From Deltaproteobacteria bacterium (GTDB taxonomy: Bacteria > Desulfobacterota > Syntrophobacteria > Syntrophobacterales > Syntrophobacteraceae), in assembly GCA_021777755.1 (NCBI GenBank), contig JAJYDE010000004.1:62001-126000 (forward strand): 64,000 bases of DNA, read 5' to 3'. Under the pieces are notes generated by a model. It worked only from the letters and a program-made list of their open reading frames with translations. It had not been told where the DNA came from and searched no databases. The position numbers and the translations under genes were made by a program. Positions 1 to 17,800 of the stretch are shown in pieces. Position 1 is the first letter of the stretch. Each line of letters starts with the position of its first letter.

Positions 1-738
1 ATGGCTTCGATCGGCAAGCTGGCCGCCTCGGTGGCCCATGAGATCAACAACCCCTTGAGTGGCGTACTCGCCTACGCCCGGCTGATATCGAGGCAATTGA
101 GCGAAGGGCCGATGACGGAGGAAGAGAGCAAGGTGGCCCTCAAGCACTTCGACACATGCATAGGCGAGATCAAACGGTGCGGAAATATCGTCAGGAACCT
201 GCTCCGCTTTTCCCGCAATTCCGAATCCGTGGTGGAAAAGGTCGATATAAACAATATTATCGACAAGAGTCTTTTAATCACAAACCACCATTTTCAGATA
301 CACAACATCCGGACGCTAACGGAGCTTGAAGCCGGGGATTCCGCCTTTTTCGGAGACCCGAACCAGATTGAGCAGGTGTTGGTAGCCCTTTTCATGAACG
401 CCTTGGAAGCCATGCCCCAGGGCGGCGTGCTAACCGTAACGACCAAGGACGCCCCGGACGGCAAGGCCCTGCAGGTGGGCGTAAAGGATAGCGGCCGTGG
501 AATTCCGGCGGAAATCCGGTCGAAAATTTTCGAGCCCTTTTTCACCACCAAGGAGGGGGGGCACAGCGCCGGGCTAGGCCTTTCAATCGTTTACGGAATC
601 ATGCTGAAACACTGCGGGCAGATCGAGGTCGAATCCGAACCGGGCCGGGGGGCTTCCTTCGTGCTCACATTTCCAAGGCAATTGACGCCAGACGAGGTCA
701 ATGGTTCCTCCGATGAAGGCATCATTTCCGAGATGTGA
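1..738 (+). CDS. Sensor histidine kinase, 3' part only
   Basis: This is the C-terminal catalytic half of a two-component sensor kinase; the gene starts before the window. The ATG at base 1 is almost certainly internal, because the frame opens directly on the dimerisation/phosphoacceptor helix, with the HEINNP motif (His at visible residue 13). The HATPase domain follows: N-box [13 protein letters not shown]1 box DSGRGIP, F-box EPFFTTK and G2 box GLGLSIVYG. The sensor domain is not visible. It sits 68 bp upstream of an NtrC-type response regulator on the same strand, so the two probably form one operon and phosphorelay pair. The input signal cannot be told from this fragment. Confidence 0.93.
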
Positions 739-806
739 GAAAAACCGGGGGCGGAGAGTGAAAAGCGGGCAACTGAGCGGTTCGGGCTGTGCGGGACGGG
801 GAGACA

Positions 807-2153
807 ATGGCAGAACAAGCTTCAATACTGATCGTAGACGATGAACCCTCGGTCCGGGATTCTCTCAAACACTGGTTTTTGCAGGAAAAATACCTCGTGG
901 AAACCGCCGCCGACGCACTGGAAGCCCTGGCAAGGATCGGCGAATCGAGTTTCGACATCGTTCTTCTCGACATCAAGATGCCAGGGATGGACGGAATCGA
1001 GCTTCAACGGCGCTTGAGGGAAATCGACAGCCAACTGGCCATCATTATCATGACGGCCTATGCGTCGGTGGACACCGCCGTTCAGGCCCTGAAACAGGGG
1101 GCCTACGATTACATAACCAAGCCGGTGGACCCAGACGATCTGAGCAGACTTATCCGCAACGCGGCCGTACAGCGCCGGCTCCAGAGGGAAAATCTCACCC
1201 TCAAGCAGGAAATCCATTCCCTCATTTCCACAAACAAGATCGTCGGTGAAAGCCGGCAGATGCAGGATGTGCTCAACACCATTCAAACGGTGGCCAAAAC
1301 CGACGTAACGGTGATGATCCAGGGGGCTTCGGGCACAGGCAAGGAGCTCGTGGCCAGGGCGATCCACTTCAACAGCAAACGCAAATACTTCCCGCTGATT
1401 ACCATAAACTGCGGAGCCCTTACCGATACGCTGGTCGAATCCGAACTTTTCGGCCATGAACGGGGGGCCTTCACCGGAGCCCAATACAAGCGCAAAGGGA
1501 AATTGGAACTCGCCGACAAGGGCGTTCTATTTCTCGATGAAATAGGCAACATCGGCCCCAAGACGCAGATGGATCTTTTACGCGTTATAGAAACCAAGCG
1601 CTTCACCCGGCTTGGCGGAAACGAGGTGGTGCAGGCGGACTTTCGGATCATTTCGGCGACCAACAAGAATCTGGAAGACGCGGTGAAGGAAGGTACGTTC
1701 AGAGAGGATCTCTACTACCGGTTGAACGTGTTCAACATCCAGTTGCCCCCGCTGAAGGAGCGGGTCTCGGACATTGCCCTGCTCGCAAATCATTTCGTGC
1801 GCAAGTTCGCCGCGGCCATGAACAAACCCTTCACGGGAGTCGAAGCGGCGACCATGGAGCTTCTAAAGCAACAAGCCTGGCCCGGCAATGTGAGGGAACT
1901 CCAGAACGCCATAGAACGGGCGATCGTCGTGGGAAAGCCCCCCCTGATCACTGTGGAGGATTTTGCCGGCCTTGTGGCGCAAAATGGTCCCTCGAAGTCG
2001 GGCGAGGTGCTGCCGTTGGCCGAAATCGAAAAACGCCATATTCAATTCGCCCTGGATAAGAGCGGGGGCAACGTATCTCTTGCCGCCCAACTCCTCCAGG
2101 TTGACAGGGCCACGGTCTACAACAAGATCAAGAAATATGGCCTGGTATACTGA
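807..2153 (+). CDS. NtrC-type sigma-54-dependent response regulator
   Basis: This is a 448-residue sigma-54 activator with the full three-domain layout. The receiver domain (about 1-125) has acidic D11/D12, phosphoacceptor D55 and K105. The AAA+ domain (about 145-385) has Walker A GASGTGKE (173-180), the sigma-54 contact motif GAFTGA (220-225) and Walker B LFLDEIG (241-247). A Fis-type helix-turn-helix lies at the C-terminus (about 400-445). I chose ATG 807 over the in-frame GTG at 789 because GGGGAG lies just before it and the receiver fold begins there. It is paired with the upstream kinase. It faces the hybAB-like operon, which may be its target; that is an inference. Confidence 0.95.
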   Translation: MAEQASILIVDDEPSVRDSLKHWFLQEKYLVETAADALEALARIGESSFDIVLLDIKMPGMDGIELQRRLREIDSQLAIIIMTAYASVDTAVQALKQGAYDYITKPVDPDDLSRLIRNAAVQRRLQRENLTLKQEIHSLISTNKIVGESRQMQDVLNTIQTVAKTDVTVMIQGASGTGKELVARAIHFNSKRKYFPLITINCGALTDTLVESELFGHERGAFTGAQYKRKGKLELADKGVLFLDEIGNIGPKTQMDLLRVIETKRFTRLGGNEVVQADFRIISATNKNLEDAVKEGTFREDLYYRLNVFNIQLPPLKERVSDIALLANHFVRKFAAAMNKPFTGVEAATMELLKQQAWPGNVRELQNAIERAIVVGKPPLITVEDFAGLVAQNGPSKSGEVLPLAEIEKRHIQFALDKSGGNVSLAAQLLQVDRATVYNKIKKYGLVY

Positions 2154-2305: not shown

Positions 2306-3520
2306 CTACGCCCCTCCGGCTCCCGCGGCCCACAGATCCTTTAAGGTGTTTGTCCCCGTCTCGGGCTTTTCATGGGACAATACCGGCAGGCGGTTGACCA
2401 GCCATCTGAAGAGCCATATGCCCATGGTCACCAAAGTCACCGAGACCGTAATTTCCATCCAGCTCGGATGATAATGGGGGTGGATCTGCCAGTTGAAGGC
2501 GATAACGGATATGTTCAGCCGGTTGAAGATTATCCCGATGACGGTCCAACCGCCGGTAAATCGCACCAGTTTGACATTTCGGGTTCTCACCCCGAGGGTG
2601 TACAGAACGCACGGCAGGGCCACAAATCCCAGCATCTCGACCAGGAAGAGGTGGCCGTAGGGGGTAAGGAGCAGGTCCCAGCGCCCCAGTTCGGAAAGCC
2701 CTATGAGTTTGAGGAAAAAGTAGACCCAGAGCACCACCGCGGCGGCTTTGGCCAGCCCCAGGGTCAGGTCGTCGAGGTCGAAATGGCTCGATGCGGGCAG
2801 CCGGTAGGCGAAGAGCCTGTGGGATAGCGAGCTTTCAACGATCACCATGGAAAGCCCGGCGACGATGCTGGAAACGAAGAAAAAGAGCGGCAGGTAGGGA
2901 GAATACCACAGGGGAAAGAGTTTGGTTGGCGCCAGCAGGAAAAGAGAGCCCAGACTGGATTGATGAAGAGTGCTAAGCACGACGCCAAGGATCGACAGCC
3001 AAACGGTTAGTTTACCCCAAAAGCTCCTCAGGCCGTCCCACTGAAGCCATTCCCAGAAAGCCGGTACAAATTCGAGGAGTTGGACGGTAAGATAGGCTGC
3101 CACGCACATACCGACCTCGAAGAGCACCGAGGTGACCCCGCGCGGAAAAATCATGATGAGGGGCATGCGCCACGGGCGCCCGAGGTCCAAAATGAGACCC
3201 AAAACGACGAAAACATAGCCGAGAAAACCGGTTAGAATGGCGGGCCGCACAAGGGGTTCGTACTTTTTGAGCCCGAAGATGTGCACTGTGGCCGCGAGGG
3301 TGTAGCCGCCGGCGGCAAGGGCGACGCCCGACATGACATCAAAGCCGATCCAAATGCCCCAGGGGGTTGTCTGAGTCAAATTCGTAACCGCCCCCAGCCC
3401 CTTTGCCAGCCGCAGTCCGATCAAGCCCAACCCGACCAGCATGATGAATCCGCTGATCAGATTAAACGGGGTGAAAAACTTCTTCGGGTCTCCAAAAAGC
3501 AGATGAACGAGTTTTTTCAT
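2306..3520 (-). CDS. hybB: HybB/NrfD-family membrane subunit of a periplasmic redox complex
   Basis: This is a 404-residue integral membrane protein of the NrfD/PsrC/HybB family, which moves electrons between a periplasmic Fe-S protein and the quinone pool. About ten hydrophobic segments are visible, with the early TTPWGIWIGFDVMSGVALAAGG stretch typical of HybB (positions roughly 50-70) and a LDLGRPWR motif after the third helix. Its ATG overlaps the TAA of the upstream hybA-like gene by one base (TAATG), so translation is probably coupled. No hydrogenase catalytic subunits lie in this operon, so the electron donor may be encoded elsewhere. Family assignment is firm; use of hydrogen as substrate is not shown. 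Confidence 0.87.
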   Translation of the reverse strand: MKKLVHLLFGDPKKFFTPFNLISGFIMLVGLGLIGLRLAKGLGAVTNLTQTTPWGIWIGFDVMSGVALAAGGYTLAATVHIFGLKKYEPLVRPAILTGFLGYVFVVLGLILDLGRPWRMPLIMIFPRGVTSVLFEVGMCVAAYLTVQLLEFVPAFWEWLQWDGLRSFWGKLTVWLSILGVVLSTLHQSSLGSLFLLAPTKLFPLWYSPYLPLFFFVSSIVAGLSMVIVESSLSHRLFAYRLPASSHFDLDDLTLGLAKAAAVVLWVYFFLKLIGLSELGRWDLLLTPYGHLFLVEMLGFVALPCVLYTLGVRTRNVKLVRFTGGWTVIGIIFNRLNISVIAFNWQIHPHYHPSWMEITVSVTLVTMGIWLFRWLVNRLPVLSHEKPETGTNTLKDLWAAGAGGA

Positions 3521-4485
3521 TATCGGCTTCCCTTCTGTGAGGCGTCATGGTGGGAACGATCCTCGTGGGCATCGTCCTTACCGTGGCTGAAATAATGAAA
3601 CCCGGCAAGCAGCGCGGGCCAGATCAAAAGGACGGCCGGTACGGTTCCCGCAGCCCCGGCGGTCAATTCCGGATAGTTCTGCGAGCTCATCTTTGGCAGA
3701 CCCAGTTCGTCATGGGGCACCCCGGCAAGGTAGAGCCAACTGGTGCCGCCCGCTTCATGTTCCCCGTAGATATGATCGATGTAGCCCTTGGGGTTGCCCT
3801 CGATGCGTTTTCTGGCTTCCTCGATAAGATCTGATCTTCGCCCGAATTTGAGGGCCTGCACGGGACAGGCTTCCGCGCAACCCGGTTGTTGACCCTTTTC
3901 CTGCCGGGTGAAGCAGAACTGGCACTTTCTTATTCGAGGCACGGCCTTGGAATATTCGAATTTGGGCATGTCGAAAGGACAGGCCACCATGCAGTAACGG
4001 CACCCAAGACACAGGTCCTCGCGCCAGGTCACCGCGCCGTCGGGCTGCTTTTCGAGCGCCCTTATGATACAGGCCGAGGAGCACGCCGGCTCGATACAGC
4101 TCATGCATTGCTGCTTGCGCGTAATCTGCGCGCCGTTTTTCATGTTGTACCTGTTTACGACCGTCCATTCCCTGGGGGAAGTATCCCGGTGCTCGTTAAG
4201 AACGGAATCGTCGTCAAACGACCTTTTGGGCTGCGGCAGTTTGTTTACATCATTGCAGGCCGCCTCGCAGGAACGGCATCCGATGCACAAGGTGGTGTCC
4301 ACCAGGACTCCCATGGCATCATCTTTTTTCGACTTGACCACCGCTCCGGCCGCCTTGGCGGCCCCTGGAGTAAGCATGGCCATCGCTCCGCCCGCGCCGA
4401 AAATCTTGAGGAAGTTGCGCCTCCCAAGGTCGGGAGCGCCTTCTTTCGTTGACACGGTAACCACCGGCTTTGTCTTATCTTCCAT
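3520..4485 (-). CDS. hybA: HybA-like Tat-exported ferredoxin with four Fe-S clusters
   Basis: This 321-residue periplasmic iron-sulfur protein starts with a twin-arginine signal (GRRNFLKIFG, about residues 21-30) and a hydrophobic stretch. Cysteine motifs for four 4Fe-4S clusters follow: CIGCRSCEAAC, CMSCIEPACSSAC, CLGCRYCMVAC, and CQFC completed by CAEACP. A hydrophobic segment near the C-terminus (PAVLLIWPALLAGFHYF) would anchor it, as in E. coli HybA. It passes electrons to the NrfD-type membrane subunit encoded next. It lies 18 bp downstream of the GcvH-like gene in the same operon. The family match is strong; the physiological electron source is unknown because no hydrogenase large or small subunit is nearby. 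Confidence 0.9.
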   Translation of the reverse strand: MEDKTKPVVTVSTKEGAPDLGRRNFLKIFGAGGAMAMLTPGAAKAAGAVVKSKKDDAMGVLVDTTLCIGCRSCEAACNDVNKLPQPKRSFDDDSVLNEHRDTSPREWTVVNRYNMKNGAQITRKQQCMSCIEPACSSACIIRALEKQPDGAVTWREDLCLGCRYCMVACPFDMPKFEYSKAVPRIRKCQFCFTRQEKGQQPGCAEACPVQALKFGRRSDLIEEARKRIEGNPKGYIDHIYGEHEAGGTSWLYLAGVPHDELGLPKMSSQNYPELTAGAAGTVPAVLLIWPALLAGFHYFSHGKDDAHEDRSHHDASQKGSR

Positions 4486-4503: not shown

Positions 4504-5199
4504 CTATTTAGTGAGAAAAAACTCTCTTGCCAACTCGTCCCACATCTCCGGATCGACAGCCTTCGCGATCCCCCTGACCGGCTCGCCGCCGTCGGCGTAC
4601 ATCGGGGCGCCCGACATCGACTCACTCCGGGAGTACAGGGCCTGGCGAAGACCTTCAAGCCATTGTCCCACCATCGTCGAGGGTATCATATTCTTGGTAT
4701 TGGACGTGAGGTTGGCGCTTCGGACCTTGAACAGCCAGCCACTGCCGTAAGGGTCCTCGAAAGCCGTGGCGGGAGAACCGGCCACAGCCTCGTTTATCTC
4801 CGTGACTTCGCCTTCCACCGGGGCCAACATGTGAATGACGCGTGAATCGGTCTTGAACCCCCAGCCCAAAGAACCCTGCTTGACTTTGGAGCCCGGTTTG
4901 GGCAGTGAGATCGAATCGGCCGAACCGAGAAGTTTCGCCGCAAAATCGTCCATTCCGATGGTGACGGTGTCGGCGCTGTCGATTCTGGCCCAACCATGGC
5001 CGGGATGAAACATAACGTCCGCGGGAGCAAGAAAACCGGCCAGACGGTCGGCAAATGAGCGGGCGGCAACCGTTGCGGTCCGCGGCTTGGCGCTCGGACC
5101 GTTTAGCACCCGCCAGAAGGCGATAAAGCCGAACAGGCCGATTATGGCGATTAAGTACTCGGCCTGCCTCGCATGATAGATGTGCTCCAGGATGATCAT
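4504..5199 (-). CDS. Membrane-anchored GcvH-like protein lacking the lipoyl lysine
   Basis: This is a 231-residue protein with one N-terminal membrane segment (about 15-33), then a glycine-cleavage H-protein-like domain (about 60-165) and a C-terminal helical tail. The H-protein fold is recognisable from HPGHGWARI, IGMDDFA and APVEGEVTEIN. In true GcvH the lipoylated Lys lies eight residues before the Pro of the PVxGE turn. Here that place is Ser119 in KTDSRVIHMLAP, so it probably cannot carry lipoate. No glycine-cleavage gene is nearby; it is first in an operon with hybA- and hybB-like genes. A structural or sensory role in that redox complex is inference. Confidence 0.78.
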   Translation of the reverse strand: MIILEHIYHARQAEYLIAIIGLFGFIAFWRVLNGPSAKPRTATVAARSFADRLAGFLAPADVMFHPGHGWARIDSADTVTIGMDDFAAKLLGSADSISLPKPGSKVKQGSLGWGFKTDSRVIHMLAPVEGEVTEINEAVAGSPATAFEDPYGSGWLFKVRSANLTSNTKNMIPSTMVGQWLEGLRQALYSRSESMSGAPMYADGGEPVRGIAKAVDPEMWDELAREFFLTK

Positions 5200-5255
5200 A
5201 TCGTTGGCGCTCCTTTGGATTGAGGTTTGAAAAAAACGGGTCGTACAGCCTCTAG

Positions 5256-5271
5256 ATCAAGTTTCATGCCA
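5256..5271 (-). promoter_or_regulatory. Weak sigma-54 promoter candidate before the GcvH-like/hybAB operon
   Basis: On the minus strand TGGCAT, five bases, then TTGAT approximates the -24/-12 consensus TGGCAC-N5-TTGCA. It lies about 60 bp before the operon's start codon. The -24 GG is intact but the important -12 GC reads GA, so the match is poor. It is listed because an NtrC-type activator is the neighbouring gene. Confidence 0.22.
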
Positions 5272-5555
5272 TCACCAGCCCCGAAAGCTCTCAACCGTGA
5301 TTAGCCTGCATTATCAGATTGTTGGCACTCTTTAACAGTGGTGTTGCAAATCGGTTTCAATGGCGCGGCGAAAGGCGGTGTTGAAAATTTCGGCACACCG
5401 GGAACCGGGAGTGTGGAAAATTTCGAATTCAATGCGAATCGGTGTTGTATTTTTCATCAAGGCGCAAAAAGATTTATGGCGCCCGGAGAATTAGATTACA
5501 TAAAAAGAGCTCGGGCCGGCTTGGCAAAGCGACTCGAAATCCAAGGAGGCGTAGA

Positions 5556-5993
5556 ATGGCTGTTAAATCGATACCGGAAGGTTACCACACGGTTACGCCC
5601 CTTCTTTCGGTGAAGGGAGCGGTGAAATTGATCGATTTTTTGAAAAACGCGTTCGGGGCGGTGGAAGTCTACCGGTTTTCATCCCCTGACGGAACGGTAA
5701 GGCATGCGGAGGTTAAGATCGGCGATTCGGTTGTCATGCTCGGGGAGGCGTGCGTGGAGTCTCCCGCAATGCCGGTATCGCTCTATCTCAATCTAAACGA
5801 TACTGACGCCACCTATAAAAAAGCCCTGGCGGCCGGCGGCGAAAAGGTCGCGGCGCCCGAAGAGATGTTCTGGGGCGACCGGGTGGCAACCGTCAAGGAC
5901 TTTGCGGGAAACAGGTGGTGGATTGCAACGCACGTGGAGGAACTAAGTTCCGAGGAGCTGGAAAGGCGAGCGGAAAAAGCCATGGCCGCCTGA
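5556..5993 (+). CDS. VOC-family (glyoxalase/PhnB-like) protein
   Basis: This is a 145-residue protein of the vicinal oxygen chelate superfamily, closest in pattern to PhnB/YybH-like glyoxalase homologues. It starts with the typical GYHTVTPLLSVKGAVKLIDFLKNAFGA pattern and has the second half-module AATYKKALAAGG-like plus a DFAGNRWWIATH ending. I chose ATG 5556 because AAGGAGG lies six bases upstream; the longer upstream frame encodes an Arg/Lys-rich non-protein-like stretch. Substrate is unknown; many such proteins act in small-molecule isomerisation or drug binding. It appears to be monocistronic and is followed by a gene-poor region. Confidence 0.82.
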   Translation: MAVKSIPEGYHTVTPLLSVKGAVKLIDFLKNAFGAVEVYRFSSPDGTVRHAEVKIGDSVVMLGEACVESPAMPVSLYLNLNDTDATYKKALAAGGEKVAAPEEMFWGDRVATVKDFAGNRWWIATHVEELSSEELERRAEKAMAA

Positions 5994-7036: not shown

Positions 7037-8668
7037 TTAGGCCCGTCCCCGGCTGTAGTATTTCTGGCTATCCCCGGGAGATAGAATGATGGCCCTATTG
7101 TACCATGCTACCGCCCGCGCGTAATGTCCCTCATCATAGTAGACATCCCCTATTCCTTCCACTGCCTGAGCATTGTCCGCTTCGATTCGGAGTGCGCGCT
7201 CATAGAAAGCGATGGCCTTTTTAAATTGACCCGATCCAGCCCATGCGTCTCCCGTTCCGCTCAGGGCAGACGCTTCAGTATTTCGTGAAAAAAGCGGGAC
7301 CTTCAGCAAGGCAAGAGCTTTTTCATATGATCTTACCGCCTCCGGGTATTTCCCATTATTAACATAATTTTGGCCTTGAACAATGTAGTCTTTAACCAGC
7401 GAGTTAAAACCAAGAAATGAACCAATGGTCAACAGGAGCAGCAAAGCGCATGTCAAGATCGATACCACCCTATTCCTTTTGGTCCACCTGGTCAGCCTTC
7501 CGAGGTTTCCCACCGGCTTGGCCACAACCGGTTTGGAGAGCAGGAAGTCGCTCAGGTCTTCTTTCACCAGATCGACCCGATGGTAGCGGGCCTCGGGGGT
7601 CTTCTCCATGCATTTGAAGACTATGGCTTCAGCGTCTTTGGGGAATGCCTTGACAGCCGTCCGCAACAAGGGCGGGTCTTTTTTTAATATATTCTCAATG
7701 GTTCGAGCGACGTCCACCGCTTGAAAAGGGGACTTGAGCGAGAGCATTTCGTACATGGTGACGCCAAGAGACCAAACCTCCGATGCCGGACTTGCGATGT
7801 TTTTCGTGATGTGCTCAGGAGAGGCGTAGGAGATCGTACCGAGAAAGTCTTGCGATTGAGATTTTTTGAGAGAGCGCATGTCTTTCGCCAGACCGAAATC
7901 GACAATCATCGGCACCCCGCCGCGAGTCAGCATTATATTGGATGGTTTCAGGTCGCCATGGCAGATACCGTTTTTGTGCGCATAGCTGAGAGCGTCGGCG
8001 ATCTCGGCGCATAGTGTCAGCACGAAGGCATGATACGGCTTGACCCACAGCGAGGGCGGACGGGCAACATGGATTGATTCGGGCTCCCCCGTTTCATCAC
8101 TGCCGACGTTGAGCCGCATGAAGTCCGGATGATCTGAAATGATTTCCCGGACCATCATCGCCGACCGCCGACTGGCGGGAGCGCATCTCAGCGCCTGCAG
8201 GACCTTGTCGAAGGAAATGCCGGTGACCAAGGCCATTGCAATATAGCAAAGGCCCTTTTCCTCCCCCATGAAATGGACCGGAACTATGTTGGGATGGTTG
8301 AACTTGGCGACGATCCGCGCCTCGGAGCGGAACCGGTTCACCGCCCCGGAGTCGGAGGACAGAGCGAACGGAAGGACTTTCAGTGCGACATACCTGTTCA
8401 GGGATCGCTGGAGGGCGAGGTAGACCACGCCCATGCCTCCCCTGCCGATTTCATCTACAATCAGGTATTCGCCGATCTCTGTGCCGCTCAGATCGACATC
8501 GGCAAACGCCTCGTCAAGCACCTTGACAAGTTCGTATTTTTGCTCCAAGGCTCCCCTGAGGAAGGGATATTTTTCACAATAATCATCAAGCAGCTTCCCG
8601 CTTCCTCCATCAAGTATCTCTTCAATGAAGCGGTCGATTATCTCCTTTCGTTCGGCGGTCTTAGGCAT
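7037..8668 (-). CDS. Ser/Thr protein kinase with TM segment and TPR repeats (prematurely stopped)
   Basis: This 543-residue Hanks-type kinase has an N-terminal ~65-residue helical region, then the kinase domain with glycine loop GRGGMG, ALKVL lysine, catalytic loop HGDLKPSN and the DFG motif. One membrane helix follows (VVSILTCALLLLLTIGSFLGF region), then TPR repeats on the far side of the membrane. ATG 8668 is preferred over the GTG at 8677. It overlaps the 3' end of an ECF sigma gene by 31 bp, an arrangement typical of planctomycete-like ECF/kinase pairs. An in-frame TAA at 7037 cuts the last TPR unit; the kinase domain is intact and may still work. The full-length form would be about 618 residues. 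Confidence 0.88.
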   Translation of the reverse strand: MPKTAERKEIIDRFIEEILDGGSGKLLDDYCEKYPFLRGALEQKYELVKVLDEAFADVDLSGTEIGEYLIVDEIGRGGMGVVYLALQRSLNRYVALKVLPFALSSDSGAVNRFRSEARIVAKFNHPNIVPVHFMGEEKGLCYIAMALVTGISFDKVLQALRCAPASRRSAMMVREIISDHPDFMRLNVGSDETGEPESIHVARPPSLWVKPYHAFVLTLCAEIADALSYAHKNGICHGDLKPSNIMLTRGGVPMIVDFGLAKDMRSLKKSQSQDFLGTISYASPEHITKNIASPASEVWSLGVTMYEMLSLKSPFQAVDVARTIENILKKDPPLLRTAVKAFPKDAEAIVFKCMEKTPEARYHRVDLVKEDLSDFLLSKPVVAKPVGNLGRLTRWTKRNRVVSILTCALLLLLTIGSFLGFNSLVKDYIVQGQNYVNNGKYPEAVRSYEKALALLKVPLFSRNTEASALSGTGDAWAGSGQFKKAIAFYERALRIEADNAQAVEGIGDVYYDEGHYARAVAWYNRAIILSPGDSQKYYSRGRA

Positions 8669-9324
8669 GGTCGCCACAGCCTGAGTTCCTGCAAAATTTT
8701 TCTATCCTCGGCGATGGAAACGAGCTTCATATAAGAACGTTTGAATCGTTTCCTTACCGCGTCGGCACTTTCGCCCGAATAAGAGGCGATCTCGGTGAAG
8801 GTCAATTCCTCCAGTTTGTGAGAAATAATCACCTCACGATCCCGTTCATCAAGCTCGAGCAGAAGGCCATCGACCAAGGTTTGAATGTCTCTTTTCAATA
8901 GATGCCGGGTAGGAGAAGTCACTTGCGCTGGAATCATATCGCCCAAATGAAGCATGTCCCCCGAAACTGCCAGTGTTTCATCAAGGGAGAGTTCGCCCTC
9001 GGACGCTCTTTTCTTCGCCGCTGCGAAGTCGAGCTTATCGCGGACCACGTTTTCCACAATCCGGCTTAGCCAGTGGATGAAAGCCCCTTCGCCGGCAGGC
9101 TCAAAACCAGGAAGGTTTTCAAATGCCTTCATGAAAACCTCCTGCAGGATGTCCATCGACTGAGTTCTGAGCTTGTCGCGCATGCCGGAATTCAACCTCA
9201 GACGCACTATTCTGAGCACCCTGTTGTGGTAGCGGGCAAAAAGGATGTTGAGAGCGTGTCGGTCCCCCGCCTTCCCCATTCGGATCAACTTGACAGTGTC
9301 CTGCCCGGCTCTTTGCGCATCCAT
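8638..9324 (-). CDS. ECF-type RNA polymerase sigma factor
   Basis: This is a 228-residue sigma-70 family factor of the extracytoplasmic-function type. Region 2 is visible as LNILFARYHNRVLRIVRLRL through DILQEVFMKAFENLPGFEP, and region 4 as LDERDREVIISHKLEELTFTEIA followed by the recognition helix SADAVRKRFKRSYMKL. ATG 9324 was chosen because GGGGAA lies five to six bases upstream; the TTG at 9360 lacks this. No anti-sigma factor is adjacent. Instead the overlapping downstream gene is a Ser/Thr kinase, and ECF factors paired with such kinases are known to be controlled by phosphorylation. That regulation here is an inference. Confidence 0.88.
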   Translation of the reverse strand: MDAQRAGQDTVKLIRMGKAGDRHALNILFARYHNRVLRIVRLRLNSGMRDKLRTQSMDILQEVFMKAFENLPGFEPAGEGAFIHWLSRIVENVVRDKLDFAAAKKRASEGELSLDETLAVSGDMLHLGDMIPAQVTSPTRHLLKRDIQTLVDGLLLELDERDREVIISHKLEELTFTEIASYSGESADAVRKRFKRSYMKLVSIAEDRKILQELRLWRPCLRPPNERR

Positions 9325-9602
9325 AAAGGTTCCCCGAAGCTGTCCGCTTTTTTTAGACAAATCCGTTTAAGCAAGTATAGGGGCAAATGATTTCCGCAAC
9401 AAGGAGACATTTGCCGCCAACACTATTTGGCAGCTCCTCCCATGGCCTGAACGTTGAGGCTGATGCGTTGGCTTCAAGGAGGAGCAAATGAAGGACGAAT
9501 TGGTCCGAGCACGGGGGGCTGAGCCGGGAAGGAGGATGAGCGTTTGTTGATTAACGAAGAAATCGCGCAATTTATCTCAATATCAAGGTATGGAGTCGGG
9601 CT

Positions 9603-10203: not shown

Positions 10204-12333
10204 ATGCTGTATCTGATGATGACAAAAATGGGTGGATTGATAAACCAAATTGGAGCCAAGATTTTCCCTTGGTTCAAAAATGACTTCGTCGCTCCTTTCC
10301 TGGCCGGTGCAATCGGAATATTCGCGCTCGTCATATTGCTGTATTTCCTGTTCCGCCGTTTTCTTCCCGCATTCATGCAACTTTCCGGTTGCATGAGGCG
10401 GCTGAAATCGTTCGCATCGTGGGAGGAATTTTCGAGGGCGGAGAATTTTAACGGCTTTAATGCGTACATGGAACAAAAGAAACTTTTCATGCACGCCTGG
10501 AAAGAGTTCTGCAAGACCATTATCCGCCCAAATGAAGACGAATCAAGAGCGATATGGATTACCGTCCGGCCGTCGGTGTACCTGAATGCGGCGGATTTGG
10601 AGGGCAATCTAAGACTCAGGAGCCTCCATTCCTGGAGCAACATACTGGTTGGCATCGGTCTGCTGCTGACGTTTTTTGGCCTCGTAGCGGCCCTTTCCTT
10701 TGCCTCTCAAGGCATAAGCAGCGCGGTGGCAAGCGTGGCCGCCTCCGCGCTGAAAAACGGCGCACATTCTCAGGTCACCGCGCAGACGGATATCCAGAAC
10801 GCACTGGTGGAGCTGTTGCATGCGGCCAGTTTTAAATTCTGGACATCAATAGCTGGCCTGGGTTGTTCCATCCTTCTGACATTATGTCACAAATGGATGT
10901 CCAGATACATTGAAGGCCGGCTTGAAGCAATGTGCGCCAAAATCGAATCCCTGACATTTCCGGTCACGCCCGAATGGCTTGCTGATCGAGAGTACAAGGC
11001 AATACGGCAACAGTCGGATCAGCTCAAGAACTTTAATGATACACTCGCGGTCACGCTCGGACAGGCCCTTGAGAAGGCAATCGAGCGCTCAATGCCGGTC
11101 CTCATGAGCGCCGCGGTGGCCCCTGTCGTCGAACGACTGGACGACATGCCGCGCAGTAACGGCGAGACATTCCGCAACGCGCTGAACGACGCGATGCCCC
11201 AGGTAATGACATCGGCGATTTCGCCACTCTCCGGCCAAATCGGGAGCATGATCGAAGAACTCAACCTGCTTAACCAATCGATGGTGAACTCGCTTACAGA
11301 GAAGTTCGGAGACGTTGTAACGGCGAACGCCGGGACGGAACTGAGGGAACTTGCCACCACGCTCGGGCAGGTGAGAGAAACGCTTGCGGCGACCTCTCAA
11401 AGTGTGGGCGACAGTGGAAGCAAAATGTCCGACCAACTCGGCGAAGCCGCCTCGGAACTGCGAAGCGCCGTAAAATCACTCGTGGAAATGGTGGAAGGCA
11501 TGTCCCGCGGCGTGGAATCGGATTTGTCCAGGACACAATCCGCCCTTCAAACACAGTTGGCCTCGGTGGGGGACAACCTGAAAGTGTTGGCTGAAGGAAT
11601 AAAGGGATCTCTTGCGGAAATGGGCGGGCAATTGAAGGATTCATCGCTTCGGGCGGCGGAAGCGTTCAACGAGGAAATCGCTGGCGCGGTCAAACGGATC
11701 GAAACAGCGGCCGAAACGGGCGCCACGTCGCTGGCGACCCTTGTGGACAGCCTTCGGACGGCCTCCAGTGAAGCGACAGGGGCTCTGGCCGACCAGACCG
11801 CTGGAGCATCGAGGGCAATGCGGGAGGCTGTCGAGCGAATAGCCGCCTCATTGGATTCGGCCTCGCGCAACATGTTGGATGGCGCCTCAGAAGCATCCGC
11901 CCAGATATCCTCGCGCCTTCTCGATTCCATCAGAGAACTCAAAGACGCCGCCAGGCAAAACGCAGGGCAGATCGAGGAGGCGGTAAGGGCGATTACAGTG
12001 GCCGGACATGCCGCGACCCAAACGGTCGGCGACGCCGCCAACAGGACGGGTGTCGAGCTGGATGAAAAAGGCCAACTTGCCGCTGGCAGGCTCGTCTCGG
12101 GAGCAAGCGCCGTCCTGGAAAATCTGTCCAATGCTTTTGATGGCTTCAATGAAAGGACCAATTCTTTGAAGTCAGCCCTTGAAGTCATCGAGAACAGGCT
12201 TGCCACGCATGCCGCGGCTCTGAGAAAAGTCAATGAGTCGGCGCAGTCCACGGTCGATGCGATGGCCGGCACGGCCAGAACTCTCAAAGACTCGACCGGA
12301 CCGCTCACACAGGCCGAACAGGGGCTTGCGTGA
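10204..12333 (+). CDS. zorA: ZorA, Zorya motor subunit (ends at an in-frame TGA)
   Basis: This is the MotA-like subunit of a type I Zorya anti-phage system. Three membrane helices are visible (about 29-51, 147-166 and 211-229), followed by a long Ala/Ser/Glu-rich coiled-coil cytoplasmic tail from about residue 235. In characterised Zorya, ZorA5B2 forms a proton-driven motor whose long tail transmits the phage signal. The start has GGGAGAGG upstream. The frame is halted by TGA at 12331-12333 after 709 residues, yet continues in the same frame for 123 more codons of coiled coil. CGA (Arg) to TGA is the simplest origin. The membrane domain and most of the tail survive, but the tail tip would be lost. 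Confidence 0.9.
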   Translation: MLYLMMTKMGGLINQIGAKIFPWFKNDFVAPFLAGAIGIFALVILLYFLFRRFLPAFMQLSGCMRRLKSFASWEEFSRAENFNGFNAYMEQKKLFMHAWKEFCKTIIRPNEDESRAIWITVRPSVYLNAADLEGNLRLRSLHSWSNILVGIGLLLTFFGLVAALSFASQGISSAVASVAASALKNGAHSQVTAQTDIQNALVELLHAASFKFWTSIAGLGCSILLTLCHKWMSRYIEGRLEAMCAKIESLTFPVTPEWLADREYKAIRQQSDQLKNFNDTLAVTLGQALEKAIERSMPVLMSAAVAPVVERLDDMPRSNGETFRNALNDAMPQVMTSAISPLSGQIGSMIEELNLLNQSMVNSLTEKFGDVVTANAGTELRELATTLGQVRETLAATSQSVGDSGSKMSDQLGEAASELRSAVKSLVEMVEGMSRGVESDLSRTQSALQTQLASVGDNLKVLAEGIKGSLAEMGGQLKDSSLRAAEAFNEEIAGAVKRIETAAETGATSLATLVDSLRTASSEATGALADQTAGASRAMREAVERIAASLDSASRNMLDGASEASAQISSRLLDSIRELKDAARQNAGQIEEAVRAITVAGHAATQTVGDAANRTGVELDEKGQLAAGRLVSGASAVLENLSNAFDGFNERTNSLKSALEVIENRLATHAAALRKVNESAQSTVDAMAGTARTLKDSTGPLTQAEQGLA

Positions 12334-12702
12334 GCAACCGGCGCGCTCGGGCAGTCGGTTGACCGCCTATTCGAAAATATGCGTCCCGTACAGCAGGAAT
12401 TGGGGCGGCTTTCAAAGGAAACCTCCGGGACCTTGGAAAAACTTCAAGGGGTTTGGGAGCGACATGAGAACCGTTTTAAAGATGTTGACGCAAGCCTTGC
12501 CAAAACAGTTGAAATCATGATTGGCAACCTCAAGAGCAATGCCGCCGGATTCAGCGAATACATCGCAAAAGTGGACAGCAATCTTGCCCATACCGTGGGC
12601 CTGCTTGCGGGCAATGTAGATGATTTGAGGTATACCGCCGAGGAGGTTCGAAAGGCGACCGAGCATTTGCATAGCGGCAACGGTTCTTCCAGTGCCAGAT
12701 AG
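12334..12702 (+). pseudogene. Severed distal tail of ZorA
   Basis: This continues zorA in the same frame beyond the TGA, starting ATGALGQSVDRLFENM and running 123 codons to a natural stop 16 bp before zorB. The composition (heptad-like, rich in Leu, Glu and Lys) matches the preceding tail. An internal ATG at 12379 exists but without a clear ribosome-binding site. With it, ZorA would be about 832 residues. Immediately after the TGA an AACCGGC...GTCGGTT hairpin (11-nt loop) can form, but no evidence for selenocysteine recoding exists. Confidence 0.82.
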
Positions 12703-12718
12703 AGCGGGGTGAAGAAAA

Positions 12719-13474
12719 ATGGCAATCTCCAGGCGGTTTCATGTAAGCGGGCATACGGAAGAGGGGTATTTCGCCTCGATGACCGATATGATGATAGGCA
12801 TGTTGTTCCTCTTCATCATCATGCTGATGTTTTTCGCCCTCAAATTCAACCAGGCGGCCGCGCAGCAGCGCAAGACGCTGAAGGACCTTGTAGGCGCGGA
12901 CGATACGAGAAAAGAGCTTCTGAAAAATATCAAAAGGTCGATGGAAAAGGAGGGGGTTTCGGTGACATTGGATACTGAAAACGGCATTTTGCGCCTGCCC
13001 GAAAGCATCCTTTTCGATAGCAACAAATCAGAATTGAGCGACCAGGGAAAGGACGCCTTGAACAAGCTGGCGATGTCCCTGGCAAAGGTCCTGCCCCGTT
13101 ACACGTTTCTCCAGGGTCAAGACAACAGTGGGATGGGGCCGCGCTCACCCCACGGCATCGAGTCGATTTTTGTCGAGGGCCACACGGATAATGCCGGGAG
13201 TGCGGACCTCAATTGGCGGCTTTCCGTGGATCGGGCATTCCACACCTATCAAGCCTTGATCGGCGCACAACAAATCCTGGCGGAGCTTCAAAACCGGAAT
13301 GGACAGCCGGTGCTGAGCCTGGCAGGGTACGGAAAACAGCGTCCCGCATATCCCAACGACACGCCTGAAAACAAGAGGCTCAATCGGCGCATCGATCTGC
13401 GCTTCATCATGTCTCCGCCACGCGTAACCTCAAAACTGGAGGATATTCCGGAGAAAGGGGGGGCCGCGCCATGA
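12719..13474 (+). CDS. zorB: ZorB, MotB/OmpA-like stator subunit of Zorya
   Basis: This is a 251-residue partner of ZorA. A short cytoplasmic N-terminus leads into one membrane helix (about 20-40) with Asp23 at its start (ASMTDMMIGMLFLF), the position of the proton-carrying Asp in MotB-like stators. The C-terminal periplasmic OmpA-like domain (about 90-235) should bind peptidoglycan and has IESIFVEGHTDNAGS and NKRLNRRIDLRF motifs. It lies 16 bp after the end of the zorA frame and overlaps zorC by four bases (ATGA). The gene is intact. Known Zorya work places ZorA and ZorB in an inner-membrane motor complex that senses phage invasion. Confidence 0.93.
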   Translation: MAISRRFHVSGHTEEGYFASMTDMMIGMLFLFIIMLMFFALKFNQAAAQQRKTLKDLVGADDTRKELLKNIKRSMEKEGVSVTLDTENGILRLPESILFDSNKSELSDQGKDALNKLAMSLAKVLPRYTFLQGQDNSGMGPRSPHGIESIFVEGHTDNAGSADLNWRLSVDRAFHTYQALIGAQQILAELQNRNGQPVLSLAGYGKQRPAYPNDTPENKRLNRRIDLRFIMSPPRVTSKLEDIPEKGGAAP

Positions 13475-14865
13475 ATCTCAAATCATGCCTGGAGAGTTTT
13501 GATGGGCCGATAATCATCCCCCCGCCGCCCCTTGCTCGCGAACCGCGCATGCTGAAGGCAAGGGAGCATGTGGAAAGGAAACTTGAAGCCTTGTACGCCA
13601 ATCCGCCCGGCCTGGATATTGAAGAGCTTCATAGTCGCCTAAATGCCGCCGTCGTTTCGAACATTTGGGATAACATTGCCGACCGGGAATGGAGATACGT
13701 CCCGCTTTGCCTGACCATAGGTTCGCCCAGCCTTCTCGAAAACCAAAAGTTCATGAATTTCTACCTGGCCAGATTGAGCCAAGACCCCAGCCGCCTGGCG
13801 TTGCGCCACTTGATCAGAATCTATCTGCAAGAATTCAACCCCGAGGTTTTCGGGATTAGCGCCATCGCCGTTTTTCTGGCCGGCAGGACCGATTTGGAGG
13901 CAGAATGGGCGCAGAGGCATCGGGAGATCGATCTGTTCTCCGTCGGGAAAGCTCCGGTCAGACTCGCGGAGATGGCGCTGTCGGCCGATTCACCCGTCGG
14001 TTTTCTGTCGAACGTGGGCTTTGAACTCTCCTATGAATCGGCACGGCTTGCCGGACACGCGTTTATCAACGCTTTACTGTGGCTTGAACAGACTCTCAGG
14101 CGGGCGCCCTCCACAGGCCCGATTCTGAAGGTGATGAAATGGGCGATGAAGGAAGATAGACAATTCCGGTATCCATCGGTTCCCCGTATTGGAACTAAAT
14201 TGGCGGAAACACTTCTACTGCCATGGGAGGCCCATGATCCGCCGGAAGATGTGAAATATTTAATAGAACGGTTCATGTTGGACAATTACGGAGATCTTCG
14301 CGTCAACCGGTCCAAATGGATCGGCGTGAGGGAGGAAGCGCAGGCGGTAATGAGGCGTTGGCTCACAAAGATGTCTCTCGACTGGTTCCTGACCGTCGTT
14401 GATGAAACCACCACCAAACCCGAGGTGAAGCACATGTGGCCGGCGCGCCGGAAATTCTGGAACGCTTATCAGCGCCGCGGGTATATGCAGGAGGCATGGG
14501 TGATTTTCGGCAGGGTCGGAACGGACCACGCCACCAAGGTGGCCAGGAGGAAGCCAGAGGACCGGGCCTTGACGCGGAGCTTCGGCAGACTTCAAGGCGG
14601 GGGAATTGCAACGGAGCACGCCGTGCTTTTGATGCGCGTAGGAGATCTCACCATAGCCGACTGGAACTTCAACGGCAAATGCCACATATGGCTCGCGGGA
14701 AACTCCAAGGCTCCGAAGCTCTACCGTCAAGAGTACGATCGGTTCGAGCTTACGAATAATTCCAATTTTCAGCAGGTGCACCATACGGGCGCTTGGCAAA
14801 GTTCGATTTACGATTTTATACTAAAGTACACGGGGGCTTCGATGCCCAGACCGGATTACATGTGA
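13471..14865 (+). CDS. zorC: ZorC, EH_Signature-domain protein of type I Zorya
   Basis: This 464-residue soluble, largely helical protein ends in the EH_Signature domain that defines ZorC: conserved Glu-His in TEHAVLLMRVGDLTIADWNF (about 383-402), then the HIWLAGN segment and a C-terminal VHHTGAWQ. It overlaps zorB by four bases and precedes zorD by 19 bp, so the four genes form one operon. In characterised systems ZorC binds DNA and is thought to be recruited by the ZorAB motor together with ZorD. Its presence with an SNF2 protein, and absence of an HNH-type ZorE, makes this type I. The frame is intact. Confidence 0.9.
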   Translation: MNLKSCLESFDGPIIIPPPPLAREPRMLKAREHVERKLEALYANPPGLDIEELHSRLNAAVVSNIWDNIADREWRYVPLCLTIGSPSLLENQKFMNFYLARLSQDPSRLALRHLIRIYLQEFNPEVFGISAIAVFLAGRTDLEAEWAQRHREIDLFSVGKAPVRLAEMALSADSPVGFLSNVGFELSYESARLAGHAFINALLWLEQTLRRAPSTGPILKVMKWAMKEDRQFRYPSVPRIGTKLAETLLLPWEAHDPPEDVKYLIERFMLDNYGDLRVNRSKWIGVREEAQAVMRRWLTKMSLDWFLTVVDETTTKPEVKHMWPARRKFWNAYQRRGYMQEAWVIFGRVGTDHATKVARRKPEDRALTRSFGRLQGGGIATEHAVLLMRVGDLTIADWNFNGKCHIWLAGNSKAPKLYRQEYDRFELTNNSNFQQVHHTGAWQSSIYDFILKYTGASMPRPDYM

Positions 14866-14884
14866 TGCGGATGGATCGGGGAGT

Positions 14885-17800
14885 ATGAAAATGACTGCCA
14901 AATTCGAATATACCATCCTCGATGAGGCCGATGCCATACGCATCGAGCTGAGGGAAAGAAAAATCATCGGCGCAGGGAGGATTGTTCCTACTCGCGAATG
15001 GGCACTCAAGGTTGATGGCGCTCACATGACGGGCGCGGCGCGTCTTCTGGCCGTCGCCGATAAATGTGTCGATGATGAAAAGCCCGCCGCGGTTCGAGAC
15101 GAGACGGGAATCAACCTGTCTCACACTTTCGTAGCCTCCCTTGAAGAATATATCGCGCTAAAGGTCGGCTTGCCTCGCAGCACCGGTCTGGTGCTTGGAA
15201 TCGATTGCAAGGGCAACGTCGCGCAGCCCGATTTCGACCTGAGCGCCCGATGGCTTTCCATGGGAACGACTCCGGCGATCGGGGTGGGCGTAAATGGAAG
15301 CATTCTGAACCACGCCGGCGAGCAATGGCGCGTTCCCCAGCCTCTTTTCGACCTGTGGGACAAGATACGGGAGTTTAAAAGGACCGACACCCGCGACGAT
15401 CCGACGCGGTTTCGTCTTGTAGCGGAAATAATCGGCTTATTGCCGTCTGAAGAACAAGTTCGTCTGAAAACCGAAAGATACTTGAGGCGCATCAGGATAG
15501 CCCATCCCACCTCTTTTTCGCTTCGTCTCGGCGCCGGTCCCGAGGGATTTCGATGCGATCCTGTTCTGTTCGGCGCGAAGGTCCGAGACCGTTGCTTCTC
15601 ATCCGACGAGCCGCGCGCCGTAAGCGAAACGGAAAGTCTTCTGCCCGACGCGGCGCAACGGGTCTTCGCGGATGAACGCTTCCCCGCATACGATGAATGC
15701 AGGGACCGTTACGCCCTGGGGGACGGGTATTACGTCTATATCGAGCCAGCCCTTCGTGAGGCTCTTACGGTCGTTCGAAAAGCCCAGGGAGCCGACCAGG
15801 ACATTCGAAGACGCTTCGCCCTGAATCCCCAAGCATACCTTAAGGAAGCGCTTGGTGAAACGCTACCGGAATCGGTGATCGAGCAACTCTTCATTCCGAC
15901 CGAGCAATATTCGGAGCGAGTGCGGGACTTGGGGCTCTGGCAGCCGGTCGTTCTTCCCTGGGTGAAAAGGGAACCGAATTCATGGCTCCCGGAACGTTTC
16001 GGCATAATGGTGGGCGATACCAGAATAGAACTTGAGTCAAAAGACGTGGCGAAGTTGGAGGGGTCGTTGAGGGACGCGGTTTCAAGTGGAAAACCCGAAG
16101 TAGATTTCGGGGGGAAAAAAATTCCCGCCACTGATCAGGCACTGGATACCCTTGAACGACTCATAAAGGTAGTCAAGCCGCCCGAGGATAATGCGGCTGA
16201 GCCTCAGCGGGGATTCACAAAATCGAATTCAGGATTGATATTTCTAACTGTTGAAGAAAATTATGAAGCTGTTGCGTTCGCGCGCCGTTGCGATGCCCGT
16301 CATTCGCAGACGCCCGGTTTCCCGCCGTCCGTTCGATCCACGCCAAAACCGCACCAGGAGGATGGGCTTTGCTGGATGCAAGAAGCTTGGCGGAGCGGAC
16401 TCCCGGGTGTTTTGCTAGCTGATGACATGGGGCTTGGCAAGACCTTCTCCGCCCTGTGTTTTCTCAGTTGGTTGCGGGAATTGTTCCTTACGAAAGAACA
16501 GGAACGCCGGCCCTTCCTTGTTGTCGCCCCGACCAGCCTGCTCAAGAATTGGGAAAAGGAGCATGATGATCACCTGCACGACAAGGGGCTGGGAGAAATC
16601 CTGCGCGTGTACGGCGGCGAAATCAAACGGGTCCGGCTCTCAAGAAGAATGACGGGTCGGGACACGGAGCTTGGCGAGCCTCAGCTGGACGCACAGCGCC
16701 TTCGCGAAGCCGATTGGGTCCTCACCACCTACGAAACCCTTCGGGATTATCATTTGAGTTTTGCGGCGGTGCATTTTGCAGTGGCAGTATACGACGAAAT
16801 GCAAAAAGTGAAAAATCCCGCATCGCAAGTCGCAACCGCAGCCAAGGTCATTAACGCCGATTTCACCCTCGGCCTGACCGGGACCCCCATCGAGAACCGC
16901 ATTGAAGATCTCTGGGCCATTTTCGACATAATTCATCCGGGCTTTCTGAAGGACCTCAAGGGCTTCTCCGCTTCTTACCGGGACCATGACCTGGACGCTC
17001 TGAAAAGACTCAAGGAGCAATTGACAGCTCCGGGGAAAAATCGGCCCGCCCTGATGTGTCGAAGGATGAAATCAGACCATCTGCCCGGCCTGCCCACAAA
17101 AACCGTTGAAGCGATCAGGGCCGCTATGCCCTCCAAGCAGGCGGAGGCATACGATGAAGCATTGGCGGGAGCAGCTCGCAACAAAGGGCGTGCGATTCTA
17201 TCGACTCTGCAGAATCTGCGCTCCATTTCGCTTCATCCAGTTTCCCCCCAGCAACAGACGACCTACGGGGATGATTACATCAAGTGGTCGGCAAGACTCT
17301 CTCAGACATTTCAGATATTGGACCGGATCGCCGAAAGCCGGGAAAAGTGCCTTATTTTTTTGGAATATTTGGAAATGCAGGAGGTTTTGGCCGCTCTGAT
17401 ACAACGGCGATACAGGCTTTCTCGCCAGCCGCTGATCATTAACGGTTCGATACCCGGCCCCAAGCGCCAGTTGGCGGTTGACGAGTTTCAGAGCCGACGC
17501 AACGAGTTCGAGGCGATGATACTTTCTCCCAAAGCAGGCGGTGTCGGACTTACCCTAACAGCGGCAAACCACGTCATCCACCTGTCGCGATGGTGGAACC
17601 CGGCCGTCGAAGATCAGTGCACGGACAGGGTTTACAGGATCGGTCAAAATCGTGAAGTCCACGTCTATTATCCGATGGCGGTGCACCCGGACCCGTCGAT
17701 CCGCGAATACAGCTTTGACCTGAAATTGCACGAACTGCTCGATAGAAAGCGCTCGCTCAGTCGCGATGTCCTCATGCCCCCGGAAAGTTTCGAGGATGCG

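Follow-up and report, generated by a model that had tools for sequence, protein, structure and literature searches.

What does a protein with the fold of a lipoate carrier do at the head of a respiratory operon once the lysine that would bear the cofactor is gone? The question is raised by a gene in the window, the whole stretch of 64,000 nucleotides analysed here (G000:C10:62001-126000, from an assembly of 4.2 Mb). The initial annotation described its product as a GcvH-like membrane protein without lipoyl lysine in a HybAB operon, and proposed that the H-protein fold had been reused in a periplasmic electron-transfer module beside an NtrC-type regulator. The reuse of the fold in such a setting is borne out by the analysis; the partners and the membrane side have to be revised. 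The family to which the protein belongs is called GcvH-star below, as distinct from true-type GcvH.

The operon and its neighbours

The gene is a real open reading frame on the minus strand that, as first described, leads an operon of three genes. The second gene (4485-3520) follows after a gap of 18 bp and the third runs from 3520 to 2306. The operon is flanked by a histidine kinase gene, a response regulator gene and a glyoxalase-family gene, and the kinase and regulator lie on the plus strand, convergent to the operon.

4504-5199, minus strand: GcvH-star gene, 231 aa, with an HmcD-like anchor, a lysine-less H-protein domain and a family-specific C-terminal extension
5210-5216, minus strand: AAAGGAG, likely ribosome-binding site of the GcvH-star gene, by sequence reading
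3520-4485, minus strand: HmcB/HybA-like protein with the Tat motif RRNFLK, 16 cysteines in four 4Fe-4S-type groups and a C-terminal helix (residues 278-296)
2306-3520, minus strand: HmcC/HybB-like membrane protein of the NrfD family
1-738, plus strand: histidine kinase, kinase part; the gene begins before the window
789-2153, plus strand: NtrC-type response regulator with the GAFTGA sigma-54 contact motif

The naming of the two downstream genes as HybAB was dropped because the Hmc models score higher, at 371.4 bits for HmcB (cut-off 420) against 253.6 for HybA, and 498.1 bits for HmcC (cut-off 550) against 260.6 for HybB, all four scores lying under the curated cut-offs. The HmcB-like protein is predicted to be exported because of its Tat motif. 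The stand-alone HybA/HybB-type modules, too, consist of an iron-sulfur protein that is Tat-exported and tail-anchored and, after it, an NrfD/HybB-type protein; the section of PMC10924467 on these modules mentions neither conserved flanking genes nor a GcvH-like or archaemetzincin (M54) gene.

An H-protein fold without the lipoyl lysine

4648-5031, minus strand: H-protein (GcvH) fold, residues 57-184, from the predicted structure and superposition
4843-4845, minus strand: codon of Ser119 at the lipoyl-lysine position, from profile and structure alignments and tree-split rows
4504-4647, minus strand: C-terminal extension, residues 185-231 with the stop codon; D203-G204-G205, W220 and F227 are family-specific

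The Pfam GCV_H model matches residues 67-169 of the window protein (3.2e-19, 69.4 bits against a cut-off of 22.2), and the NCBIfam gcvH model TIGR00527 and NF002270 score 69.3 and 74.4, under their cut-offs of 115.85 and 117. The AlphaFold core has a pLDDT of about 80-96 over most of residues 61-160, while the model of the C-terminal extension is of low confidence and unreliable. A Foldseek search with the predicted core returned only H-proteins (best E 7.7e-13); the H-protein 1htp superposes on it with a Z of 18.3 and 1.6 A over 131 residues, and many further H-proteins match at Z 16-18. GcvH-star is thus alike to GcvH in fold and unlike it in lacking the lipoyl lysine, its motif and glycine-cleavage partners and in adding a membrane anchor and the C-terminal extension.

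In a profile-to-PDB alignment the lipoyl lysines of 1onl and 3ift fall on the column of Ser119, and the predicted structure of the window protein has a hairpin turn at residues 118-119. No lysine aligned to the lipoyl site in either the profile or the structure alignment, so that the absence of the lysine, as claimed in the initial annotation, stands. A shifted lipoyl lysine is ruled out too, as the residue at +1 is an arginine (Arg120) and K115 of the preceding strand is not conserved. There is no cysteine anywhere in the 231-aa protein. Glycine-cleavage genes do not adjoin the gene, as had also been stated, and the genome's own GcvH is encoded elsewhere (G000:C102) with an ESVKA motif and a lysine at the site.

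The family alignment comprises 171 distinct rows, controls included, of which 29 have a lysine at the lipoyl site when true-type and GcvH-star sequences are taken together. The tree places the true-type GcvH sequences in one clade of 22 rows (support 0.999). Here the E[ST]x context precedes the site in 22/22 rows and the full E[ST]xK motif is found in 20/22; the two remaining sequences, from the control loci L158 and L159, have R and E at the lysine position (motifs ESERSV and ESSESV). Among the 149 GcvH-star rows neither the E-S/T-x-K lipoylation motif nor its E[ST]x context occurs (0/149 for both). The stricter statement that GcvH-star never has a lysine at the site was rejected, as nine of the 149 rows do, always outside the E[ST]x context. 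The window clade (52 rows, support 0.94) has S in 33, A in 10, G in 6, D in 2, E in 1 and K in none, and in the second phylum, the Acidobacteriota, K is found in 1/28 rows.

What has been kept and what has been lost differ by region. Fold residues such as H68, W70, G82, D85, G92, P100, G103, P127, G130, N136 and W155, among others, are retained, whereas the lipoyl neighbourhood (the E116, S117, K119 and V121 columns) is gone, and F56, H65, G67, D84, W180, L188 and the family-specific residues of the C-terminal extension have been gained. In these alignments the loss of the lysine is borne out for the whole family. GcvH-star is a large family in Desulfobacterota, Acidobacteriota and KSB1. A fold known for carrying lipoate has been put to use extensively in respiratory modules, without the cofactor, and genes of these phyla that bear the label 'glycine cleavage protein H' often do not encode glycine-cleavage proteins.

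A membrane anchor resembling HmcD

5098-5154, minus strand: codons of the predicted membrane helix, residues 16-34, within the HmcD-like N-terminus; hydropathy 1.87

The added N-terminal membrane helix of the initial annotation was recovered at residues 16-34 and is the only hydrophobic helix of the window protein. GcvH-star proteins come in three builds, with one of two kinds of membrane anchor or with a cysteine-rich N-terminal part. By a hydropathy threshold a membrane helix is present in 74/171 rows, the cysteine-rich part is present in 46 rows, and the same unit of GcvH domain plus C-terminal extension lies behind either N-terminal type. Lysine and arginine are more frequent on the domain side of the helix in 64 of the 74 anchored rows (252 against 59 residues in total). 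Under the positive-inside rule this excess predicts that the GcvH domain faces the cytoplasm, which speaks against the periplasmic location implied at first; charge counting is the whole basis of this prediction.

In the Hmc respiratory complex, HmcD is a small membrane subunit. The N-terminal consensus of the window's kind is M-x-G-F-x-x-V-D-I-x-A-T-K-G-I-E-Y followed by the helix, and the NCBIfam HmcD model matches 33 of 51 N-termini of the window clade at E up to 0.05 (best 3.8e-9), against 2/51 for the next family. The scan covered 51 of the 52 clade members, L039:8001-8180 being left out for an unreadable residue. On the window's own N-terminus the match is weak (E 0.038, 14 bits against a cut-off of 34), and among the control helices of the other anchored kind it is absent (0/16). 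With these matches in the clade and none among the controls, the window subfamily resembles a fusion of HmcD with an H-protein domain that lacks the lysine. As for the role first suggested, 'a structural or sensing part', the structural half gains from this N-terminus. GcvH-star might conceivably sense as well, but the cluster has an evident sensor in the c-haem histidine kinase described below.

Gene clusters across phyla

The genome-context survey proposed with the initial annotation was carried out on 73 GcvH-star loci annotated by six-frame profile search. These are the best-scoring matches and hence not a random sample, two genomes (G009 and G004) are represented twice, and many contigs are short, so that absences make the counts lower bounds. 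HmcB and HmcC genes are both present at 41/73 loci, HdrA without HmcC at 18/73 and neither at 14/73. A regulator set accompanies them, with response regulators at 56, histidine kinases at 48 and M54 genes at 48 of the 73. At 21 control loci with GcvH the corresponding numbers are HmcC 0, M54 0, response regulator 4, histidine kinase 2, HmcB 2 and HdrA 6. Within the window clade, 38/52 members lie on the same strand as HmcB and/or HmcC and within 350 bp of them or overlapping them; window-type genes with no HmcBC nearby are found at L047 and L049. The order HmcB-HmcC-GcvH-star-kinase-regulator-M54 recurs in Acidobacteriota genomes.

GcvH-star copies often number two or three per cluster and reach four per locus. 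At L061:6066-11180 four tandem GcvH-star genes stand beside what we take to be a sulfide:quinone-reductase-like flavoprotein and a small DUF1641 protein. The loci L067, L069, L070 and L071 encode a lysine-less GcvH-like protein with a cysteine-rich N-terminal part beside HdrC, HdrB and an HdrA-like protein of about 1490 residues, together with kinase, regulator and M54 genes. A tie between GcvH-like proteins and Hdr-type redox modules is also known from LbpA of sHdr sulfur oxidation, which GcvH-star recalls where it lies beside HdrABC. However, in the LbpA study the lysine is kept in all 95 LbpA sequences aligned and two conserved cysteines are described except in some archaeal members (PMC6067878), whereas GcvH-star is without the motif in 149/149 rows and the window protein has no cysteine.

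Probable control by a haem kinase and sigma-54

5256-5271, minus strand: candidate sigma-54 -24/-12 element TGGCATGAAACTTGAT, the -12 C not conserved
5378-5396, strand not assigned: candidate enhancer dyad GTGTTG-N7-CAACAC with two mismatches, 179-197 bp before the start codon
5442-5460, strand not assigned: second, weaker candidate dyad with two mismatches

The kinase is 561 aa long where the gene is complete (L065:3054-4739) and carries CX2CH and CX4CH motifs in its extracytoplasmic sensor. Among kinases longer than 450 aa, CX2CH is present in 29/32 from HmcBC-type loci (27 of them also with CX4CH) against 0/16 from HdrA-type loci and 0/3 from the remaining loci, and an alignment of five kinases shows no variation in either cysteine pair. 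The best structural matches of the predicted sensor are Cache/PAS-type sensors, the model being moderate (pLDDT 74, pTM 0.49) with a haem loop of low confidence. The regulator comprises a receiver, an AAA+ domain with GAFTGA and a Fis-type helix-turn-helix.

Upstream of the operon the block TGGCAYGRAANTTG is kept in 5/5 relatives between differing flanks, in the manner of a footprint. A strict -24/-12 scan fails the window element, which lacks the -12 C (score 7, shuffle fraction 0.375), and for the window the sigma-54 assignment is drawn from the footprint in the five relatives and from the other loci. Across all loci the strict scan gives at least 9/12 at 33/65, with a shuffle fraction below 0.05 at 32/65 where about 3 would be expected.

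The dyad motif was derived from the window's relatives, which are omitted from a count over 54 loci and included in one over 63; loci with a short or repeated upstream stretch were dropped. Outside the window's group the dyad lies upstream at 27/54 loci, and its 30 sites in 30,024 bp compare with 15 in 797,650 bp elsewhere, an enrichment of 53-fold. Five control dyads reach 0-7.8-fold, and the same half-sites at other spacings from 3 to 11 reach 0-2.8-fold with the exception of spacing 10. Half-sites at spacing 10 are enriched 22.5-fold, with 11 sites upstream, and may represent overlapping double sites. Such a distribution is typical of an enhancer that serves the linked NtrC-type regulator, and the dyad is predicted to be its binding site. 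Control of the operon by sigma-54 and this regulator is well supported by these sequence elements, and the cluster, which occurs in several bacterial phyla, is apparently activated by a redox sensor that bears haem. The common operator makes the regulon directly testable. A genome-wide search with a longer dyad found two places (2 forward, 2 reverse), one of which is the window operon; this is no commoner than with the reversed control (2 and 2), so that a wider regulon cannot be claimed.

A glyoxalase-family gene (5442-5993, plus strand) is transcribed away from the operon. The second dyad covers its GTG at 5442, and the true start is therefore probably further in.

A proposed subunit of an Hmc-like complex

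The reading preferred here, with a probability of roughly 0.55, is that GcvH-star is the HmcD-like membrane subunit of an Hmc-like complex and carries a non-lipoylated, cytoplasmic docking or structural domain, its operon being controlled by the haem kinase and sigma-54. The N-terminal helix would correspond to HmcD, and the soluble part would be an H-protein fold that has dispensed with lipoylation to act as a cofactor-free domain for docking or support. The Tat-exported iron-sulfur protein HmcB and the NrfD-type quinone protein HmcC would join GcvH-star in one module, through which electrons would pass between the menaquinone pool and a donor or acceptor in the periplasm. The c-haem kinase may sense the periplasmic redox state and phosphorylate the NtrC-type regulator, which would then bind the GTGTTG-N7-CAACAC dyads and activate the sigma-54 promoter before the operon. 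The fold, the lost lipoylation site, the conserved gene order, the HmcD resemblance of the subfamily, the conserved upstream elements and the haem motifs are read from sequence; that the protein physically belongs to the complex, lies on the cytoplasmic side and serves for docking, the direction of electron flow and the exact signal are inferred.

The subunit reading draws its main support from the HmcD-like anchor combined with the fixed adjacency to HmcB and HmcC. The Hmc complex of Desulfovibrio (HmcABCDEF) is among the closest comparisons: GcvH-star here has HmcB-like and HmcC-like neighbours and, in its subfamily, an HmcD-like helix, and the Hmc operon too has regulator genes beside it, rrf1 and rrf2 in D. 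vulgaris (PMC10924467). In contrast, the three-gene window operon has no HmcA, HmcE or HmcF, the HmcD-like helix is fused to a GcvH-like domain, and GcvH-star clusters frequently add an archaemetzincin to a haem-sensing kinase/NtrC pair. Weighing most against a role peculiar to HmcBC is the occurrence of the same domain with HdrA modules and in up to four copies per locus. Since close relatives accompany HdrA in the absence of HmcBC (the 18 loci above), the domain's job cannot be HmcBC-specific. More tentatively, and at somewhat less than even odds, lysine-less H-proteins would mark a widespread redox assembly: the pseudo-carrier domain, coupled to an archaemetzincin and to a sigma-54 two-component system that senses through haem, would be an interchangeable docking and control module for the membrane enzymes of HmcBC type and the soluble ones of HdrABC type alike.

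Archaemetzincins and alternative roles

The function of bacterial archaemetzincins is, to our knowledge, poorly understood. In the 394 genomes of the window's phylum that were compared, 101 have GcvH-star, 146 have M54, 93 have both and 240 neither, so that M54 is present in 93/101 genomes with GcvH-star against 53/293 of the others. For 297 genomes of the Acidobacteriota phylum the respective numbers are 35, 75, 34 and 221, or 34/35 against 41/262. GcvH-star was scored at a genome threshold of E 1e-32, which left out, for example, G259 at 1.2e-32. Fisher tests give 6.7e-42 and 1.3e-22, values that are overstated since the genomes are related. The association is seen in both phyla. In the window's genome the archaemetzincin was rejected as a part of the operon, the single copy lying on contig C79 (L149:5057-14047), where a second kinase-regulator pair with the same haem motifs is followed by M54, a multihaem cytochrome and a cytochrome b gene. 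This layout means that the regulator set is duplicated in the genome, with the protease outside the HmcBC operon.

The main rival builds on this association. GcvH-star could be a cytoplasmic signalling adaptor that reports the state of the module, be it HmcBC or HdrA, to the kinase, the regulator or the archaemetzincin, which would explain why the same regulator set accompanies it in both module types as well as its co-occurrence with M54. There is also a precedent in CarG, a bacterial archaemetzincin homologue that is part of a transcriptional regulator and by analogy makes a regulatory role for M54 plausible (PMC3427221). But the window-type anchor resembles a subunit of a complex, the window operon has no adjoining M54, and kinase, regulator and M54 occur together without any GcvH-star on C79 and at L193. 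A signalling role is accordingly considered unlikely, though it is the most serious competitor of the HmcD-like subunit.

If the archaemetzincin acts as a protease, GcvH-star might instead be its substrate, and regulated proteolysis of the cytoplasmic domain would tune or disassemble the complex. The co-occurrence would fit this as well, and an intact HEXXHXXGXXHC-type motif is present in 32 of the 48 M54 rows listed (the pattern demanded HEXXHXXG), the M54 protein of L041 scoring 153.6 against the NCBIfam archaemetzincin cut-off of 145. However, archaemetzincins tested so far have been inactive on many substrates (PMC3427221), with one archaeal member reported to be proteolytic (PMC4681839), and the only M54 gene of the window's genome is on another contig. 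Regulated proteolysis is for these reasons improbable.

It is very doubtful that GcvH-star still bears a covalently bound lipoate-like or other group elsewhere in its sequence: a basic residue directly after the site is common in the window clade (K in 20 and R in 12 of 52), but K and R interchange there, the window has Arg120 and no cysteine, and the context recognised by lipoyl ligase is gone. That the protein is a decayed, functionless copy of GcvH, as the lost catalytic lysine might suggest, is in practice already refuted by conservation, with window orthologues in Deltaproteobacteria/Syntrophobacteraceae MAGs 76-83% identical and a defined clade with invariant residues of its own in several phyla.

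The HmcD-like subunit thus stays the preferred reading, and the clusters join HmcBC or HdrA electron transfer and haem-dependent two-component sensing with bacterial archaemetzincins, three things that the literature searched, which was mostly open-access, does not connect. Neither an association of GcvH-like proteins with NrfD, Hmc or Hyb genes nor their link to M54 is described in that literature. If the wider assembly proposed above is real, it would provide the first shared physiological context for bacterial archaemetzincins and lysine-less GcvH homologues.

Other genes of the window

Two further gene groups were observed in the window. At 7037-9360 on the minus strand a serine/threonine kinase with a TPR tail lies beside an ECF-type sigma factor. 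A complete type I Zorya anti-phage system occupies 10204-18244 on the plus strand, with best PADLOC E values of 5.7e-62 for ZorA, 2.7e-87 for ZorB, 3.3e-98 for ZorC and 0 for ZorD.
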